Source of the DNA: JBFLXN01 sp040755715 [NCBI: Candidatus Edwardsbacteria bacterium]
Lineage (GTDB): Bacteria > Edwardsbacteria > AC1 > JBFLXN01
NCBI GenBank assembly: GCA_040755715.1
Contig: JBFLXN010000095.1
Location: forward strand, 1 to 10,569
DNA: 10,569 nucleotides
Direction: 5' to 3'
Shown: piece by piece, positions 4,222 to 10,561 of the stretch
How the letters are laid out: each line of letters opens with the position of its first letter
Numbering within the stretch: the first letter of the stretch is position 1
Notes under the pieces: generated by a model
What the model was told of the DNA's origin: nothing
The model's database searches: none
The model's input: only the letters and a program-made list of their open reading frames with translations
Made by a program: the position numbers and the translations under genes

Positions 4222-4383
4222 ATGGCATCGTTCCTTTTGTTGTTTCTTCTACAGGTTAGCGCTGAGATAGACACTACTAAAATTCCTATTTATCAATTAA
4301 AGCCAATTATCATCACGGCCCGGCGTATTCCAGAAGATTTCTATAAGAGTCTGCGAACTATCACTGCTAAACCTGCCCGTTGA
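4222..4383 (+). pseudogene. N-terminal remnant of a TonB-dependent receptor
   Basis: A good Shine-Dalgarno, AGGAGA at 4208-4213, precedes the ATG at 4222. The frame encodes only 53 residues and stops at TGA 4381-4383. The N-terminus (MASFLLLFLLQVSA) is a short export signal. LKPIIITARRIPEDFYKSLR (about 26-45) has the form of a TonB box, comparable to LPEVVVTATRTP in the intact receptor at 8496. A plug and 22-strand barrel should follow but are absent in every frame, because cobU begins at 4440. The most likely reading is a receptor gene that once closed a btuFCD-btuB operon and was cut by deletion or by insertion of the cobUTSC block. A genuine small exported peptide is possible but less likely. 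Confidence 0.72.
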
Positions 4384-4439: not shown

Positions 4440-5006
4440 ATGGATGGAAAGATAATTTTTGTGCTTGGTGGTGCAAGAAGTGGAAAGAGTTCATTTGCCA
4501 TGGCTGAGGCATTGAAGATTAACGGTAGAAAGGCATATATCGCCACGGCAGAAGCACTTGATGAAGAGATGAAACAGAGAATAGAAAGACACAAAATAGC
4601 TCGCGGCCCTGGGTGGGATACCTATGAAGAGCCATTGGAGATTGCCGAAGTTATTAAGAAAATAGAAGGTAAATATAGGGCAATAGTTATTGACTGTCTC
4701 ACGCTCTGGCTTTCTAATTTGATGTGCAGAACACAGAATAAAGAGCAGAGAGCGCAGACTATGGAAACAGACATCCAGAGATTTTTGGATAAACTAAAAA
4801 TGTTTAGAGATGATTCATCTTGTACTCTTATTTCTGGGTTCCGTATCCTGTTCATCGTCTCAAACGAGGTAGGCATGGGAATAGTGCCAGAAAATGAATT
4901 CGCAAGAAAATTCAGGGACACGGCCGGATTTTTAAATCAGAAGATAGCAGAGATAGCGGATGAGGTATATTTTGTTACAGCAGGAATACCATTAAGAATA
5001 AAGTAG
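4440..5006 (+). CDS. cobU: Adenosylcobinamide kinase / AdoCbi-phosphate guanylyltransferase CobU
   Basis: This bifunctional enzyme phosphorylates adenosylcobinamide and transfers GMP to give AdoCbi-GDP. It has 188 residues from the ATG at 4440, close to the family length. It shows the P-loop GGARSGKS (10-17) and RIERHKIARGPGWDTYEEP (48-66), whose His51 fits the family's guanylylated histidine. Also present are IVIDCLTLWLSNL and the long C-terminal signature IVSNEVGMGIVPENEFARKF...NQKIAEIADEVYFVTAGIPL. The segment before VSNEVG (SSCTLISGFRILF) looks about ten residues longer than usual. An upstream in-frame TTG at 4380 would add residues overlapping the broken receptor and is not preferred. 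No close Shine-Dalgarno is seen. It is the first of four genes in biosynthetic order. Confidence 0.95.
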   Translation: MDGKIIFVLGGARSGKSSFAMAEALKINGRKAYIATAEALDEEMKQRIERHKIARGPGWDTYEEPLEIAEVIKKIEGKYRAIVIDCLTLWLSNLMCRTQNKEQRAQTMETDIQRFLDKLKMFRDDSSCTLISGFRILFIVSNEVGMGIVPENEFARKFRDTAGFLNQKIAEIADEVYFVTAGIPLRIK

Positions 5007-5036
5007 AAGCTGTTCAAACACTCAAAAAGAGGAATT

Positions 5037-6140
5037 ATGAAACTCGAAGAGATTTTAAAAACTATTGTTTCGGTTAATGAAAAATTCTACGAATTGGCTC
5101 AAAGACGGCTTGATAATCTCACAAAGCCACAGGGAAGTCTTGGAAGACTTGAGGAGTTTGCCAGAAGGCTTGTCGCAATCACAGAAAACAGCATACCTGG
5201 CCTTGATAAGAAAATTATCTTCACTTTTGTAGGTGACCATGGAGTCGCAGAAGAAGGGGTTTCTGCATATCCAAAAGAGGTCACGAGGCAGATGGTATTC
5301 AATTTCCTCAATGGAGGTGCTGGAATCAATGTGCTGGCAAAACATGCAGGGGCAGAGGTGATTGTCGTTGACATAGGAGTTAATTTTGATTTCACCCAAT
5401 CCTTTTGGAAAAGGGAAGCTGAGGAAGATTTAAAGGAAAGCAAGGGGGGATTATTTATCTCAAAAAAGGTTGTCAGAGGTACAAGGAATATCAGAAAAGG
5501 ACCTGCTTTAACAAGAGATGAGGCTATAAAATGCATAGAGGTTGGGATAGAGCTTGCCAATGAATATACAAAAAAAGATTATAAAATCTTTGCTACAGGT
5601 GATATGGGTATCGCAAATACAACTCCGTCATCTGCAATAGCCAGCGTTCTAACAGGTAGACCTGTATCAGAGGTAACAAGTAGAGGTACAGGCATAGGAG
5701 ATGATGCATTAAGAAACAAGATTGAGGTAATTGAAGATGCAATCTCTATCAATAAACCTGACCCAAAAGACCCGATTGATGTTCTTTCAAAGGTCGGCGG
5801 CACTGAAATTGGAGGTATTGCTGGACTAATTATCGGCGCAGCCGCAAACAAAGTTCCTGTTGTCATTGACGGCTTTATATCCACTGCCGGAGCGTTAATA
5901 GCCTATTGCCTTGAACCGAAGACAAAAGACTATACCTTTGCAGGACACAACTCTGTTGAGATTGGACATAAGGCGATGCTTGAAAAGATTGGGTTGAGGT
6001 CCATTCTTGACCTAGATTTAAGGCTCGGTGAAGGCACGGGCGCGGCACTGGCAATGTCTTTAATAGAGGCAGGACTTAAGATTTATAAAGAGATGGCAAC
6101 CTTTAGTGAGGCGGGGGTATCGAAAAAGAATAACCAATAA
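5037..6140 (+). CDS. cobT: Nicotinate-nucleotide:dimethylbenzimidazole phosphoribosyltransferase CobT
   Basis: CobT activates the lower-ligand base, making alpha-ribazole phosphate from nicotinate mononucleotide and 5,6-dimethylbenzimidazole or another base. The product is 367 residues, close to the usual 350-360. Clear family signatures are [20 protein letters not shown] (about 27-46), [22 protein letters not shown] (63-84), [26 protein letters not shown] and GTGIGDDAL. The C-terminal [20 protein letters not shown] contains the expected catalytic Glu, at about residue 332. GAGGA sits just before the ATG. The extreme C-terminus (SKKNNQ) is encoded by the start of a repeat-like spacer and may be a recent change. 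The lower-ligand specificity cannot be read from the sequence. It lies 30 bases after cobU. Confidence 0.96.
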
Positions 6141-6186
6141 CCAAATTACAATAACCAGACATTTTGGAATTTGATCATTGGAATTT
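6131..6186. repeat. AACCAAT/TTGGAATTT repeat spacer between cobT and cobS
   Basis: ATAACCA-type words repeat three times at 6130-6158. TTGGAATTT occurs twice, at 6164-6172 and 6178-6186. This word family differs from the ACCAC/CACAGAT repeats that fill the spacers around the btu genes. It overlaps the last codons of cobT and ends just before the cobS ATG. Confidence 0.55.
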
Positions 6187-6189
6187 AAT

Positions 6190-6987
6190 ATGAGACAATT
6201 GGTTCTTGCCTTTCAATTTCTTACAATTATACCTTTAAAGGTTAAAGGTGATATTTCTGAAAAAAAGATATCTCAATCAGCCGCCTTTTTCCCTATGGTA
6301 GGTGCATTTCAAGGTCTGTTAGCCGTTCTAACCGCTTCATTGTTAATAAAGTTATTTCCTTTAGAAATCACAAGCGGACTAGTGATTTTGATATTAATAA
6401 TCAGCAACGGAGGCTTTCACTTAGATGGACTTGCCGATACATTTGATGCCTTGGCTGTAAAATCAAGTGGAGACAAAACAATTGATAGAAACAAAAGACT
6501 CTCCGTGATGAAGGATGGCGCCACAGGCGCCATTGGTGTTATTTCTATAGTGATGACTATTCTGCTAAAGCTTTTACTGTTAAATAGCATCTTTCATCAC
6601 TGTCCACTGTCTACTCTCTACTTTCTACTGTTTTTAATGCCAGTGTTTTCCAAGTGGGTAATGATTCCTGCGATGTATCACGGAATATCTGCAAGACAGG
6701 AGGGGCTGGGTAGAATATTTCTCAATAACATCAGGCTAAACTTGGTTATATTCTCATCTTTATTAACGATTATTTTTTGTTTATTGATTGCCGTAATTGA
6801 CCGATTGGGAGAGTTAATATTATTTCTTATCTTGTTTGCTATGTTATATATATTTAGTTTTATCTCAGTAAAATTCTGCACCAGAAAGTTTGGCGGACTG
6901 ACCGGAGACAGTCTCGGGGCAATAAGCGAAATCTCAGAAATACTATTTTTAATGATGACCTCAATATGGTTACAACACTTTATCTAA
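6190..6987 (+). CDS. cobS: Adenosylcobinamide-GDP ribazoletransferase (cobalamin synthase) CobS
   Basis: This integral membrane enzyme joins AdoCbi-GDP to alpha-ribazole phosphate (or alpha-ribazole). It has 265 residues from the ATG at 6190; a TTG at 6178 would add four. Metal/substrate motifs are GGFHLDGLADTFDAL (about 74-88), MKDGATGAIG (107-116) and GLTGDSLGAISEISE near the C-terminus, all typical of the family. There are several hydrophobic helices throughout. Between KLLLLNSI and MPVFSKW lies FHHCPLSTLYFLLFL, encoded by a low-complexity CTACT-rich stretch at 6597-6630. This loop looks longer than usual and may be an in-frame repeat insertion. The gene overlaps cobC by 22 bases, implying coupled translation. 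Confidence 0.94.
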   Translation: MRQLVLAFQFLTIIPLKVKGDISEKKISQSAAFFPMVGAFQGLLAVLTASLLIKLFPLEITSGLVILILIISNGGFHLDGLADTFDALAVKSSGDKTIDRNKRLSVMKDGATGAIGVISIVMTILLKLLLLNSIFHHCPLSTLYFLLFLMPVFSKWVMIPAMYHGISARQEGLGRIFLNNIRLNLVIFSSLLTIIFCLLIAVIDRLGELILFLILFAMLYIFSFISVKFCTRKFGGLTGDSLGAISEISEILFLMMTSIWLQHFI

Positions 6988-7622
6988 TCAGACATGGTGA
7001 AACAGAAGGTGCAGACGCACCTAGCTACAAGGGAACAATTGATGTGCCGCTTTCAGAAAACGGTATGAAACAGATGAAATTGGTCGCAAGATACATAGTT
7101 CAACATTATTCAAAATTAAACAATATTGAACTATCTAACAGAATCGGACCATCAAAACTAAGTGCTGTCTACTGTTCCGATTTGAGCAGAGCAGTGAGAA
7201 GTGCTGAAATTATTGCTGAACCACACGGGCTTATCCCTGTTATTATTACTGAGATTAGAGAGCGAAACTTTGGAATATGGGAAGGTATGGCATTTACAGA
7301 AATAAAAGAAAAATATCCCACAGAGTTTGAGTCATGGACTAATAATCCTTTGAAATATAGTCCTATTGGCGGGGAGAGTACCTTAGCCATAAAAGAAAGG
7401 GTGATGGAGGGACTAGATAGGATACTAAATAATCATCATGGAGAAAATATTGCTGTAGTCTCTCATGGCGGAGTGAATAGGATCATCCTCTGTCACTTTC
7501 TCGGAATGCCACTGGAGAATATTTTCAGGATTGAGCAGGACTATGGTGCATTGAATATCATAGAGCTCTGGGATAAATATCTGGTCGTTAAACTAATTAA
7601 TGGAATAATCAGTTCTTCCTGA
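6966..7622 (+). CDS. cobC: Alpha-ribazole phosphatase CobC (histidine phosphatase family)
   Basis: A 218-residue cytosolic histidine phosphatase. LIRHGET (7-13) carries the phospho-accepting His10. Arg75 lies in YCSDLSRA, the acid Glu99 in IRERNFGIWEG, and the second catalytic His167 in VVSHGG. Position next to cobS and the NFGIWEGM signature argue for alpha-ribazole-5'-phosphate (or adenosylcobalamin-phosphate) phosphatase rather than phosphoglycerate mutase. The loop between the first helix and YCSDLSRA (about residues 45-66) is longer than in compact family members. The ATG lies inside the end of cobS. No promoter is visible, so it should be the last gene of the cobUTSC unit. Other broad-specificity phosphatases share these motifs, so the substrate rests on context. 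Confidence 0.9.
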   Translation: MVTTLYLIRHGETEGADAPSYKGTIDVPLSENGMKQMKLVARYIVQHYSKLNNIELSNRIGPSKLSAVYCSDLSRAVRSAEIIAEPHGLIPVIITEIRERNFGIWEGMAFTEIKEKYPTEFESWTNNPLKYSPIGGESTLAIKERVMEGLDRILNNHHGENIAVVSHGGVNRIILCHFLGMPLENIFRIEQDYGALNIIELWDKYLVVKLINGIISSS

Positions 7623-7634
7623 AGAAGTCTATGA

Positions 7635-7763
7635 AACCACGGTCTCGCCCGTGTGGGCTACGCCTAAGGGTCTACGACCGAGGGATTAGACGGATTATAC
7701 TGATTTTGTATTGCCCAAATTTCAACGAATTATGATTCCCTCAATCTGTCAAAATCTGTGGTT
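7635..7763. repeat. Second copy of the ACCAC..GTGGTT composite repeat
   Basis: Outer arms AACCAC (7635-7640) and GTGGTT (7758-7763) enclose CTCGCCCG, a GC-rich variable middle (GGGCTACGCC...GGGTCTACGACC), and CGAGGGATTAGACGGATTA. Near the end comes TCAATCTGTCAAAATCTGTG. The layout matches 2235-2341 but the central palindrome has been replaced. It fills the spacer after cobC; no intrinsic terminator is evident. Confidence 0.65.
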
Positions 7764-7826
7764 AGAAGAGATTTCTCAGAAAGAACTAAGTGGTACCAAA
7801 GAGATAATAAACACAGAGTATCACAA

Positions 7827-7991
7827 ATGGTAAAGCTAACCTCTGTTTATTTCAAATTTTTAAATCAGCGAAACAAAAAAATTTTTCAACTACGAAAGCG
7901 AGGTGCATCCTTAAAATTTTTATCATCCAAGTTTGATTTAAGCATTCGTCAGATAAGTCGCATCATAAACACAATGTCAAAAAGTGTCTAA
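7827..7991 (+). CDS. Small helix-turn-helix protein, possible gene remnant
   Basis: The ATG at 7827 gives 54 residues. The frame is open back to a GTG at 7758, but that codon lies in the arm of a repeat, so the longer form is doubtful. Residues 18-48 (KIFQLRKRGASLKFLSSKFD followed by LSIRQISRII) read as two helices and a turn of the kind found in resolvases, transposases and sigma-factor region 4. The protein is strongly basic. There is no clear Shine-Dalgarno and no second domain, so it could be a tiny DNA-binding regulator or a transposase fragment. It lies between cobC and the second riboswitch promoter, with its stop ten bases before the -35 box. A role in B12 control is not shown. Confidence 0.4.
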   Translation: MVKLTSVYFKFLNQRNKKIFQLRKRGASLKFLSSKFDLSIRQISRIINTMSKSV

Positions 7992-8000
7992 AAATGTCTA

Positions 8001-8030
8001 TTGACAGGAAATATGAAATTTTACTAAAAT
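8001..8030 (+). promoter_or_regulatory. Sigma70-type promoter for the btuB transcript
   Basis: TTGACA at 8001-8006 and TAAAAT at 8025-8030 are separated by 18 bases, the same spacing as the first promoter. A start near 8037 would put the cobalamin aptamer at the very 5' end of the RNA. This makes the receptor an independent transcription unit from btuFCD. Confidence 0.75.
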
Positions 8031-8072
8031 TAAATAATAAAACCGGATAGGCAAAGGAAATCTCCGTGCCTG

Positions 8073-8098
8073 TCCGCCGTAGCAACAGCGAAGGCGGA
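8073..8098. repeat. TCCGCC..GGCGGA hairpin repeat in the aptamer P3-side loop
   Basis: TCCGCC (8073-8078) pairs with GGCGGA (8093-8098) around a 14-base loop. It sits between the CCGTG and CGGGG halves of the aptamer helix, where the first riboswitch has only a short A-rich loop. It looks like a dispersed GC-rich palindrome of the kind common in some candidate-phylum genomes (recollection, not searched). Confidence 0.6.
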
Positions 8099-8131
8099 AG
8101 AATTCGGGGTGCTGCCGCGCAACGGTGATAT

Positions 8132-8213
8132 CACAGATGACCACAGATAAAAATCGCAGATTAGCACAGATATCTGCGCTAATCTGTCTCTTAATCTGTG
8201 CTAATCTGTGGTT
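8132..8213. repeat. About 80-base palindromic repeat inside the riboswitch
   Basis: Outer arms ACCACAGAT (8140-8148) and ATCTGTGGT (8204-8212) are perfect complements. An inner near-perfect palindrome runs CAGATTAGCACAGAT (8157-8171) into ATCTGCGCTAATCTG (8172-8186) with one G-U-type mismatch. Bases 8132-8153 match the btuF tail at 21 of 22. Because it folds on itself, it could extend a peripheral helix without breaking the aptamer core. Confidence 0.82.
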
Positions 8214-8287
8214 AAGCCCGGTCTATTGTCTATTTTGGGAAGTACCTTCGCCAGGAGGGGAAGACAAAGAGAAAAAATTGCATCTAT

Positions 8288-8325
8288 AACCCCAACTGCT
8301 GAAGGTAAAGGGGGTTTTTTGTTTT
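8288..8325 (+). terminator. Intrinsic terminator of the second riboswitch
   Basis: AACCCC (8288-8293) pairs with GGGGTT (8311-8316), followed by the U tract TTTTTTGTTTT (8315-8325). The loop contains GAAGGTA (8301-8307), exactly complementary to TACCTTC (8243-8249) between GGGAAG and GCCAGGAG of the aptamer. That gives either a loop-loop contact or an antiterminator pairing. It lies about 170 bases before the receptor gene and should abort transcription when cobalamin is abundant. Confidence 0.82.
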
Positions 8326-8340
8326 AAGAAAAAAAATCAC

Positions 8341-8488
8341 AAAAAGGAGGAGGTGAGAAAAACTTAATAAACTCAACAAACCCAATAAATCCGCAGAAAC
8401 CGCAGAATATTTTTTAGATTCCGCAGAATGTGAATCAGCGTAATCTCCTTTCAAAATCAGCGTAATCTGCGTAAACTAAAAAGGAGGA
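8341..8488. repeat. btuB leader insert bracketed by an 11-bp direct repeat
   Basis: AAAAAGGAGGA occurs exactly at 8341-8351 and again at 8478-8488, where it is the Shine-Dalgarno of the receptor. The 126 bases between hold repeated words: CCGCAGAA three times and (A)ATCAGCGTAATCT twice. No ORF of note is present. The layout could reflect insertion of a repeat element with duplication of the ribosome-binding region. The upstream copy precedes only a four-codon GTG frame. Confidence 0.55.
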
Positions 8489-8495
8489 AAAGCAA

Positions 8496-10418
8496 ATGCA
8501 GAACCCCAAAATCTCTCTCATCTTAGTAGCGGGATGTCTCTTTTTCATAACTACTGGTTTTGCTCAACAAACGCCCACCACAAACACGGCGGACAAGCCT
8601 GATACCCTAAAGCAAAAACAAGATACTCTTTCTCAAATCCTACCAAAGCCAAAGTATGTCTTGCCTGAAGTCGTGGTCACGGCTACCAGAACACCAATAG
8701 TAGAAAAAGTCGCTCCAGCCAGTGTGTCCGTATTGGCCCCTGAAGAATTAATTCCTGCTCAAAATGTTGCTACCGCTTTATCACAAACTCAGGGTGTCAG
8801 TTTAGGCCGGTATGGTGGACTCGGAAGCGAAACTTCGCTTCTCCTCAGAGGCGCCTCTATGGAAAGTGTGCTTTACCTGCTGGACGGCATCCCCTTAAAT
8901 TCAGCGCAAAATGGTAGTTTTGATTTGAACAAACTATCCAGCAACTTTCAGAAGATAGAGGTAGTTCGAGGACCCGCTTCCCATTTATATGGAGCCAATG
9001 CTGTGGCTGGTGTCGTCAACATCATCACAGATAACCCCCCAACTGAAAAAGCCTATTCCAAAGTGACATTTGAAAAAGGTAATTACGGAAACCAGTTTGT
9101 TCAAGGTGAGCTAGAAAAAAACCTCACTAAATATGCCCACTTCTCAATTTTGGGAAGTTGGAACAAGACCGACGGTCAGAGGGTCAATTCTGATTATGAC
9201 GGCAGTAATTACTCTTTAAAATTGCTAATAGAACCAATTAGCGACTGGCAGGTCAGGATTAGATATCAGGAGTATAAATCCGAAAATGGAGTGCCTGGTA
9301 GTACTGCATACCAGACTCCTGCTGACCGACAAAAAGACCGCCAGCAAGATGTCCAGTTCAAGCTCTCATACAAAGAAGATGTTTACTGGATAACAGCATC
9401 TCAAAGTCTCATTGAAACTCGTTTTTACGATGCTCTATTTAACACTACTACACGCCATTTCACCCGCCAGTCTGCAGGCGAATGTCAGATTTCACTTCCG
9501 TTGCTTCCCTCTGGTAAGACTGTTTTCGGCGGTAGCTATCAGCCGATTAAAGGCGAAAGTGATGTTACCAATAATCACAACCTGCACCAGGTTGCGGGTT
9601 TCCTCAATCAACAATATCAGCCAATTGAAAAGTTACTGGTAGTGGTTGGAGCTCACTACGGTCATCATTCTATTTACCGAGATCAGATATCACCTTCTAT
9701 CTCGGCTAGCTATGAGGCAAGGCCAACTTTGTCAGTTTACGCTTCCTGTGGAAAAGCTTTTCGGGCTCCCACCATCAATGACCTCTACTGGAAAGACGAC
9801 CTTTGGATGATGTATGGGAACCCTGATTTGAGGCCCGAAACTAGTATTCAAATTGAAGGCGGATGGAAAATGGAAAATCCCTCGCTTAAATCTTCACTCT
9901 CGCTGTTCCAGCGGAAAACTAAAAATATGATTAATTGGCAGGAGCAACCGGACTTTTCTTGGAAGGTTATGAACATAGACAAGGCAAAGGCTCAAGGTGT
10001 AGAATTGATGATGGACTACAAAATCCTCGCCTGTCTGACAGTAAGTGGGAACTATACTTATTGTAAGGTAAAGGAGGATAGTGCTAATGGTCGACTCTTA
10101 CCATATCGGCCACTAAATGTGGCGAACTTTTCACTGGCTATAAATGATTATCAGATTACCAAAGGACTTCAGTTAGGTTGGAAATTCCAGACGCAATATA
10201 CGGATATGCAAGTAGTCTCTTACCCCAGCATTTGGGGGACTGGCAAGACCTTACCTCGCTATATAGTCAGCAATCAGACATTATCTTTAAAAATTAGGGA
10301 TGCCCGGCTGTATTGGAAAGTAGAGAATCTGTTTAATGCAGCATATCAGACCCGCGACAGTTATCCTATGCCCAGGAGGTCGTATGCCTTTGGGATTTCC
10401 TGGGAATTCTGGGATTGA
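8496..10418 (+). CDS. btuB: TonB-dependent cobamide receptor, BtuB-like
   Basis: This outer-membrane receptor of 640 residues would import corrinoids using TonB energy. A strong Shine-Dalgarno (AAGGAGG, 8481-8487) lies eight bases from the ATG. The signal peptide is MQNPKISLILVAGCLFFITT, probably cleaved after GFA (residue 23). A Thr/Lys/Gln-rich linker (24-52) leads to the TonB box region EVVVTATRTP (58-67). The plug domain (about 70-178) includes LYLLDGIPLN and IEVVRGPASHLYGANAVAGV. The remainder is a beta barrel with alternating residues, the KAFRAPTINDLYW and NPDLRPETS motifs (about 425-450), and a C-terminal VENLFNAAYQ..YPMPRRSYAFG strand. It ends in WEFWD, so the usual terminal aromatic is followed by extra residues. 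Length is near E. coli BtuB. Substrate is inferred from the riboswitch and neighbours. Confidence 0.9.
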   Translation: MQNPKISLILVAGCLFFITTGFAQQTPTTNTADKPDTLKQKQDTLSQILPKPKYVLPEVVVTATRTPIVEKVAPASVSVLAPEELIPAQNVATALSQTQGVSLGRYGGLGSETSLLLRGASMESVLYLLDGIPLNSAQNGSFDLNKLSSNFQKIEVVRGPASHLYGANAVAGVVNIITDNPPTEKAYSKVTFEKGNYGNQFVQGELEKNLTKYAHFSILGSWNKTDGQRVNSDYDGSNYSLKLLIEPISDWQVRIRYQEYKSENGVPGSTAYQTPADRQKDRQQDVQFKLSYKEDVYWITASQSLIETRFYDALFNTTTRHFTRQSAGECQISLPLLPSGKTVFGGSYQPIKGESDVTNNHNLHQVAGFLNQQYQPIEKLLVVVGAHYGHHSIYRDQISPSISASYEARPTLSVYASCGKAFRAPTINDLYWKDDLWMMYGNPDLRPETSIQIEGGWKMENPSLKSSLSLFQRKTKNMINWQEQPDFSWKVMNIDKAKAQGVELMMDYKILACLTVSGNYTYCKVKEDSANGRLLPYRPLNVANFSLAINDYQITKGLQLGWKFQTQYTDMQVVSYPSIWGTGKTLPRYIVSNQTLSLKIRDARLYWKVENLFNAAYQTRDSYPMPRRSYAFGISWEFWD

Positions 10419-10448: not shown

Positions 10449-10499
10449 AGTGCTGTGTGACATAAATTCCGTAACTTTTTTCGGGAGTCACACAGCACT
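10449..10499. repeat. Large inverted repeat downstream of btuB
   Basis: AGTGCTGTGTGAC (10449-10461) and GTCACACAGCACT (10487-10499) are perfect 13-bp complements. Inside, TTCCG (10467-10471) can pair with CGGGA (10482-10486) around a T-rich loop. No U-run follows, so a terminator role is uncertain. It starts 31 bases after the btuB stop and may act as a 3' RNA end-stabilising hairpin or be a dispersed repeat. Confidence 0.75.
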
Positions 10500-10505
10500 T
10501 TCACA

Positions 10506-10522
10506 TCCCGATTCTATCGGGA
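10506..10522. repeat. TCCCGATTCTATCGGGA palindrome
   Basis: A 17-base palindrome with 7-bp arms. It differs at two central bases from the palindrome at 2261-2277 inside the btuF-btuC repeat, which supports a family of mobile or amplified short hairpins. Confidence 0.7.
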
Positions 10523-10528
10523 TATGAC

Positions 10529-10561
10529 ATTCCGAAACTTGCCACTGGCAACTTTCGGAAT
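10529..10561. repeat. ATTCCGAAA..TTTCGGAAT nested palindrome
   Basis: ATTCCGAAA (10529-10537) pairs with TTTCGGAAT (10553-10561). After one mismatch, TTGCC (10539-10543) pairs with GGCAA (10547-10551) around a three-base loop. The spacer at about 2210-2227 contains CTTGCCAC directly joined to TTCGGAATTT, a shortened version of this element. Confidence 0.75.

Follow-up and report, generated by a model that had tools for sequence, protein, structure and literature searches.

A class-II-like btuB leader that is very probably a cobalamin riboswitch with two inserted palindromic repeats of unrelated types

The leader at positions 8043-8258 of a Candidatus Edwardsbacteria contig (analysed over a stretch of 10,569 nucleotides, the window) is very probably a cobalamin riboswitch that is broken by two unrelated palindromes. 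The preferred reading, with a probability of about 0.8, is a class-II-like btuB riboswitch followed by a terminator, into which two palindromic repeats have been inserted as peripheral arms while the B12 pocket has been spared. The leader is homologous to this class, the inserts fit exactly at peripheral positions, insertions at the same sites are found in other leaders, and the core is conserved with a covarying P1. The case suggests that repeats dispersed in a genome can be turned into components of functional RNA structures.

Gene context and riboswitch class

The window contains a cobalamin cluster with btuF-, btuC- and btuD-like genes, cobU, cobT, cobS, cobC and a gene for a BtuB-like receptor. 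A canonical cobalamin riboswitch is present at 778-1030, upstream of btuF, and is the sole cobalamin match of RF00174 in the window (94.1 bits). The interrupted leader region (8042-8270) is located between cobC and btuB, and the features described here between 7827 and 10418 are all on the forward strand. A sigma-70-like promoter (TTGACA-18-TAAAAT, 8001-8030) agrees with the consensus at 11 of 12 positions; five promoter-like sites are found in 7600-8520, compared with 2.2 in shuffled sequences. An intrinsic-terminator-like hairpin (AACCCC..GGGGGTTTTTT, 8288-8325) was recognized from its sequence and fold; a terminator scan with a loop limit of 8 did not list it, and leader L130 has a terminator-like hairpin at the corresponding position. 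The presumed regulated gene (8496-10418) encodes a BtuB-like TonB-dependent receptor, which matches the NCBIfam family TonB-B12 (TIGR01779) with an E value of 4.2e-58, below the curated cut-off. The order of promoter-like site, leader, terminator-like hairpin and btuB-like gene is as expected for a riboswitch. A BtuB probe for close relatives in the genome contigs gave no match.

The initial annotation had aligned the leader with the canonical riboswitch at 795-1015, which is not supported, as the leader fits a shorter class. With the inserts in place, RF00174 gave no match up to E 10 on 7950-8400, 8040-8131 or 8214-8290 (gathering threshold 31.5 bits), and no match of RF01482 (AdoCbl, threshold 50 bits) was obtained for the candidate leader. 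Membership in RF00174 was rejected, since the canonical switch was found at 778-1030 whereas the leader had no match, whole or in pieces. The palindrome also gave microRNA-like Rfam matches (mir-3622, 35.7 bits, E 6.2e-05, gathering threshold 78), which were dismissed as hairpin artefacts.

In the phylum of G003 (the genome of L074, Candidatus Omnitrophica), some weak, short RF00174 matches are located just 5' of btuB-like genes. One short architecture is shared by 16 of the 20 leaders fetched from such sites, consisting of the P1 5' strand, AGGAA, P4, CTG..GCAACGGTRA, the P6 arm, AGYCCGR, the P1 3' strand, an AGTA motif and the P13 hairpin. The candidate leader contains the parts of this architecture in the same order. 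Such switches can escape Rfam: a single one of these 16 relatives reaches the gathering score (L116, RF01482, 63.4 bits), 11 score below it and four have no match at E <=0.05.

A covariance model of the short class, R1, was built from 12 aligned leaders without large inserts, with the candidate excluded and with 20 pairs set by hand and then checked; one training leader, L119, has a 16-nt L4 and was later counted among the nine leaders with L4 inserts. The candidate is the top match of R1 in the window (28.0 bits, E 3.6e-7), followed by the canonical switch with 13.2 bits. The alignment begins at 8090, inside insert 1, and is incorrect towards the 5' end, where the P1 strand is mispaired with sequence of insert 1; 8090 is therefore not the true start. 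On the two leader pieces, R1 gives 21.5 and 16.7 bits with displaced alignments, and on held-out interrupted leaders it gives 100.6 bits (L124), 65.5 bits (L120), 63.2 bits (L134) and 40.5 plus 22.9 bits (L133). The proposal that a cobalamin aptamer core is broken by two unrelated repeats at peripheral positions is supported, and a model of the right subclass finds the leader.

Judged by sequence and pairing only, the leader is a short, class-II-like btuB leader and not of the canonical architecture: it has the class II four-way junction P3-P6, with P4, P5, the P6 base and a closing helix, and it lacks the P8-P12 extension, with only insert 2 between the strands of the P6 base. For class IIb, GGAA in J3/4 and UCU in J6/3 are described in the accessible part of PMC11260477. 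The window reads GGAAA and GGUCUAU at these positions, in agreement with class IIb, but the consensus of the relatives is UCG instead of UCU, and an assignment to this subclass is therefore tentative.

Several further observations concern the surroundings of the leader. The palindrome CCCGCCTGTGTCGGGCAGGC at 812-840, in the P2 loop of the canonical riboswitch at 778-1030, may be another repeat, and more palindromes (TTCCGAAACTTGCCA/TGGCAACTTTCGGAA and CATCCCGATTCTATCGGGATATG) follow btuB at 10451-10561. After btuD, an ORF at 4222-4383 stops after 53 codons and by eye has a start like that of TonB-dependent receptors (signal peptide, PIIITARRIP); it is possibly a btuB remnant, and a tblastn search with it against the collected loci gave no match. 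The genes cobU, cobT, cobS and cobC (4440-7622) are closest to Nitrospirae-type records, with CobT reaching up to 78% in L013, in a set of loci that was collected with CobT and is biased accordingly. The CobT probe found at least 339 relatives, of which 80 were kept, and the best among the matches listed are from Nitrospira or Nitrospirae. Unlike cobUTSC, btuFCD and btuB show no Nitrospirae-type closeness among the collected loci, and this difference suggests that cobUTSC may have been acquired by horizontal transfer. R1 matched none of 198 genomes at E <=1e-4 in the phylum of G011 (the genome of L002, Nitrospirae), a set without a positive genome and thus uninformative.

Aptamer core, inserts and folding

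The P1 5' strand CCGGATAGGCAA (8043-8054; alignment A2) is in the same register as in alignment A1, and it forms ten P1 pairs in the parse with the P1 3' strand TTGTCTATTTTGG (8226-8238), as judged from a constrained fold and the pair types. J3/4 is GGAAA (8056-8060), of which GGAA is invariant in the 12 training leaders and in A2. P4 (8062-8109) consists of five base pairs between CTCCG (8062-8066) and CGGGG (8105-8109), and its loop L4 holds insert 1. P5 and L5 (TGC CGC GCA, 8113-8121) are complementary to L13 through L5, and the P5 pairs are standard in all 12 rows of A1. The segment at 8123-8128 comprises the P6 base CGG, whose partner is CCG at 8218-8220, together with the TRA that is conserved in the internal loop of P6. 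The 3' base of P6 and J6/3, AGCCCGGTCTA (8215-8225), are conserved in A1 and A2. The P13 hairpin CCTTC-GCCA-GGAGG (8245-8258) has a loop-side CGC that can pair with GCG of L5, corresponding in sequence to the L5-L13 kissing interaction. Among the segments earlier taken as conserved, GGAAAT..CCGTG corresponds to J3/4-P4 and CGGGGTGCTGCCGCGCAACG to P4-P5-P6 of a cobalamin aptamer, and TCTATTG lies in J6/3 and the P1 3' strand. GGGAAG and GCCAGGAG are not P7 and J6/3 of a canonical switch; in the shorter class, these segments form the spacer and the P13 hairpin.

The GC-rich hairpin at 8073-8098 and the CACAGAT palindrome at 8132-8213, which the initial annotation had placed between conserved aptamer segments, are both present there and each folds on itself (-14.4 kcal/mol for 8070-8100 and -37.2 kcal/mol for 8132-8213). 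Their boundaries as insertions are better drawn at 8070-8100 (insert 1, 31 nt, including the 26-bp palindrome TCCGCCGTAGCAACAGCGAAGGCGGA) and at 8129-8214 (insert 2, 86 nt, the distal P6 arm). Insert 1 lies within L4, after GTG, and insert 2 is distal to the conserved TRA/AG internal loop of P6. The 38-nt L4 of the window equals 7 + 31 nt; without insert 1, the flanks CTCCGTGC and AATTCGGGG join to the 7-nt loop TGCAATT, as in L116 and L135, and an L4 of 7 nt is found in 58 of 82 parsed leaders by automatic count. The P6 segment of 86 nt compares with at most 34 nt in 60 of the 82, and the fold of insert 2 has a z score of -7.5 against 100 mononucleotide shuffles. CACAGAT occurs 12 times in the window, compared with 1.24 expected (shuffle maximum 6), and seven of these copies are outside insert 2, one of them in btuB. 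A second copy of insert 1 was not found among the 20 largest of 44 direct repeat families in the window. Genome G025, which carries leader L130, has 26-bp elements of the insert 1 design at five places, such as TCCGCCGTAGCTTTAGCGAAGGCGGA. A loose pattern of insert 1 is found in 22 of 22 genomes and its reversed control in 21 of 22, exceeding the pattern in four; as the two behave similarly, information comes only from the specific 26-bp forms.

Insert 1 is located in L4, the T-loop hairpin, and T-loops may tolerate insertions such as this one. In class II, the junction is held by a T-loop contact between L4 and L6, and P13 docks on L5, according to the accessible part of PMC10907184. The unconstrained minimum-energy fold of the leader lacks P1, and the P1 5' strand GGAUAGGCA is instead paired to the insert 1 edge sequence UGCCUGUCC; cmsearch on 8037-8131 also pairs P1 with this edge. 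The energy gap in favour of the unconstrained fold over the native one is 7.9 kcal/mol, and 10.0 in a shorter construct. Among the insert-free members the same gap has a median of 8.4 (quartiles 7.4-10.1, maximum 20.0), in a comparison of 73 of the 82 leaders that excluded the four J4/5 members, L143, L144, L147, L172 and L182. The gap of the window falls within this range, and the thermodynamic argument against function is thereby weakened. It was also observed that the insert 1 edge TGCCTGTCC (8043-8075 region) resembles the P1 3' strand and is able to base-pair with the 5' strand of P1, for which it could act as a trap or as a new switching partner.

Core conservation was compared between the 30 insert-bearing and the 52 other leaders. 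The two groups have 1.07 and 1.00 mismatches in 25 core positions, respectively, and the window has two. P1 covaries in the insert-bearing leaders, in which 91.9% of the P1 cells are paired (76.0% in shuffles, maximum 80.0%), compared with 92.1% in leaders without inserts (78.0% in shuffles); in the window, all nine fixed-register P1 positions are standard pairs. The L5-L13 complementarity is 9.72 over 82 leaders, against 9.00 (sd 0.19, maximum 9.55) in 300 permutations, with an automatic L13 that is mis-set in some leaders, for example L119, L157 and L158. The shuffle tests of P1 and L5-L13 take no account of kinship, and leaders with a conserved core are selected by the survey. CGC is present in L13 of 22 of 25 leaders that have GCCGCG or GTCGCG in L5, and of six of 31 that have GCCCCG. 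This conservation and covariation point to a working aptamer that has probably been retained.

Insertions in related leaders

At E <=0.01, R1 matches 105 of 384 genomes in the phylum of G003, and 80 further leaders were fetched from part of these matches. Of 101 sources parsed (100 loci and the window), 82 were kept; 16 gave no parse (L125, L126, L131, L132, L146, L149, L159, L161, L207-L209 and L211-L215), and L152, L156 and L160 were dropped as failed or belonging to other classes. Only leaders with a recognisable core are recovered in such a survey, and decayed insert-bearing copies would therefore be missed. By length, 30 of the 82 leaders bear inserts: P6 exceeds 40 nt in 22, a threshold set after the distribution was seen, L4 is extended in nine and J4/5 in four. 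Five leaders have inserts at two sites (L148, L155, L157, L210 and the window). The automatic P4 search misplaced P4 in L144, L147 and the J4/5 members, and the lists of nine L4 and four J4/5 members were set by eye. In L172 and L182, a long P4 results from a wrong upstream GGAA and was not counted; L143 is wrong in the same way and counts through its P6.

Among the 22 long P6 segments, 12 have a folding z score below -5 and that of L157 has -5.0 (100 mononucleotide shuffles). Those of L138, L145, L150 and L155 do not stand out from shuffles (z -1.2 to -1.7). One and the same P6 position is occupied by different repeat types in different genomes: by eye, CACAGAT is found in L133 and the window, CACGAAT in L143, L154, L158 and L210, AGTAGG in L120, L134, L141 and L151, TAGCGTATAGCG in L136 and L147, and other types also occur. 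Two tandem hairpins of a TCCCGAA..TTCGGGA type were observed between P4 and P5 in four of the 82 leaders (L157, L210, L155 and L153), and a hairpin pair of another sequence is at this place in L238. In the phylum of G005 (the genome of L059, Elusimicrobia), R1 matches 70 of 198 genomes at E <=1e-4. The 30 best loci were examined, of which three gave no parse, and extended L4 hairpins were found in, for example, L237, L239, L246 and L249.

Further copies of the inserts were searched for in whole genomes. Of four tested inserts, those of L133, L134 and L157 have several further copies in their own genome and that of L154 has one; as some palindromes were matched on both strands, match counts overstate the number of places. 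For the L133 insert, 30 further matches were obtained in its own genome, compared with none in five others. The L134 insert has nine further matches in its own genome G002, and the query matches 24 times in G163 and 12 times in G267 (counts that include their own leaders), three times in G108, twice in G053, once in G069 and not at all in G156 and G139. As G053 and G069 were intended as controls, this repeat type extends beyond the genomes that carry the insert. The CACGAAT-type query of L154 gives one weak further match in its own genome, the own leader plus one match in G166, the own leader only in G384 and none in G279. For the J4/5 insert of L157, four further matches are found in its own genome G334 and eight in G323 (the genome of L153), several of them at E 0.002 to 0.006, and none in five other genomes, including G179 and G384, whose leaders carry a J4/5 insert. 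A repeat or palindromic nature is proven for only part of the long inserts.

Relatives without the inserts, as anticipated in the initial annotation, exist. A small helix-turn-helix ORF of 54 aa (7827-7991), which matches Pfam Mor with an E value of 0.0002, under the family cut-off, is located upstream of the leader and serves as a synteny marker. This ORF was observed 5' of the btuB leader in the window and in seven other loci (L130, L140, L168, L174, L179, L189 and L201). By tblastn, its identity is 75.6% in L130 (41 aa) and 66% in L140 (47 aa), and it also precedes five other leaders. L130 has neither insert. L140 is without the CACAGAT arm, and its P6 is TACCACAATTTTGTGGTTA; it carries its own, different L4 insert ending in GGCGGACAGG, the reverse complement of CCTGTCCGCC, which is the start of the window insert. 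This suggests that the L4 insert of L140 may be an event separate from insert 1 of the window. L133 has a CACAGAT arm of the same type at the P6 position of the window. Among the relatives of G040, R1 matches six of 39 genomes, with 40.5 bits in G040 and at most 29.6 bits in the five others; a close empty-site relative of L133 was accordingly not obtained among the 39 searched.

Explanations and known systems

According to the preferred reading, the leader would consist of P1, P4, P5, P6, J3/4 GGAA, J6/3 and an L5-L13 kissing hairpin, followed by the terminator. One palindromic repeat would have been inserted in the apical loop of P4 and an unrelated one would have replaced the distal P6 arm. 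Both would fold as autonomous hairpins directed away from the four-way junction, so that the B12 pocket would be spared and the repeats would serve as peripheral arms. Transcription from 8001-8030 would produce an RNA whose four-way junction binds B12, and binding would favour L5-L13 docking and P13, allowing the terminator at 8288 to form and lowering btuB expression. The inserts may be neutral or useful.

It is rather unlikely that the repeats broke the riboswitch and that btuB is now constitutive or controlled in another way. Such decay would agree with the location of insert 1 in the T-loop hairpin L4, with an edge that can trap the P1 5' strand and that is also paired with P1 by cmsearch on 8037-8131. 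However, the window has two core mismatches in 25 and standard pairs at all nine fixed-register P1 positions, and it has retained the L5-L13 match, the promoter-like site and the terminator-like hairpin. The undiminished core of the 30 insert-bearing leaders among 82 also argues against decay, though the survey selects for the core.

Little probability is given to the inserts having evolved in place, in which case their likeness to repeats would be incidental or the repeats would derive from riboswitch arms. The Elusimicrobia hairpins (L237, L239, L246 and L249) indicate that L4 tolerates hairpins, and an origin in place would also suit the L154 insert with its one further match, the short L4 extension of L119 and the P6 segments of L138, L145, L150 and L155, which are not clearly better than shuffles. 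It is countered by the 30 and nine further own-genome matches of the L133 and L134 inserts, by the seven of 12 CACAGAT copies in the window that are outside insert 2, and by the different repeat types at the same P6 position. That GC-rich palindromic intergenic DNA merely mimics aptamer segments by chance would fit the missing Rfam cobalamin match and is hardly credible given the E value of 3.6e-7 with an independent model, the exact 7-nt L4, the relatives sharing the upstream ORF and the location of the leader before a btuB-like gene.

Beyond the preferred reading of peripheral insertion, a wider proposal is put forward tentatively, namely that palindromes dispersed in genomes act as a supply of peripheral RNA domains that can be drawn on again and again. 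The P6 arm, and likewise L4 and J4/5, might repeatedly be replaced by the palindrome type of the host, perhaps through hairpin replacement via short homology, with some inserts gaining a role in folding or switching. A possible stretch of such homology, shared by the former P6 stem and the arms of the repeat, is seen when L140 (TACCACA..TGTGGTTA) is compared with the window (TATCACAGAT..ATCTGTGGTTA). These leaders bear on how structured RNAs acquire peripheral helices, as they provide many natural cases in one riboswitch class. Insert-free relatives exist, the core is conserved, and the two or three outer positions concerned are shared by unrelated sequences, among them several proven repeats; tolerance, hotspots and gain of function are therefore directly testable.

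No report of dispersed repeats inside a cobalamin riboswitch was found in searches of open-access literature, with subscription papers largely outside the search. The class II cobalamin riboswitches (RF01482 AdoCbl, in clan CL00101 with RF00174) share with the leader the four-way junction P3-P6, GGAA in J3/4, the lack of a P8-P12 extension and the L5-L13 kissing, as described in the accessible parts of PMC10907184 and PMC11260477. Unlike these riboswitches, the leader carries repeats in L4 and P6 and has no Rfam match. Upstream of the pneumococcal trp operon, a BOX element located between two T-box riboswitches is a mobile repeat joined to riboswitch RNA, in an arrangement that is apparently still regulatory according to its authors; there, the repeat is between aptamers and not inside one (PMC3049150, accessible part). 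The STRR repeats in the RNase P RNA of heterocyst-forming cyanobacteria are reportedly also short repeats in a functional structured RNA, but they are tandem repeats and the RNA is not a riboswitch (Vioque 1997). Also related in kind are the Rickettsia palindromic elements in tmRNA and M1 RNA, in which a palindromic repeat is fused into a conserved structured RNA (PMC2229807, accessible part); the hosts are housekeeping RNAs and not a ligand-sensing leader. In contrast to the Rickettsia elements, several repeat types are found here at the same two or three sites of a single class of riboswitch, in many genomes.
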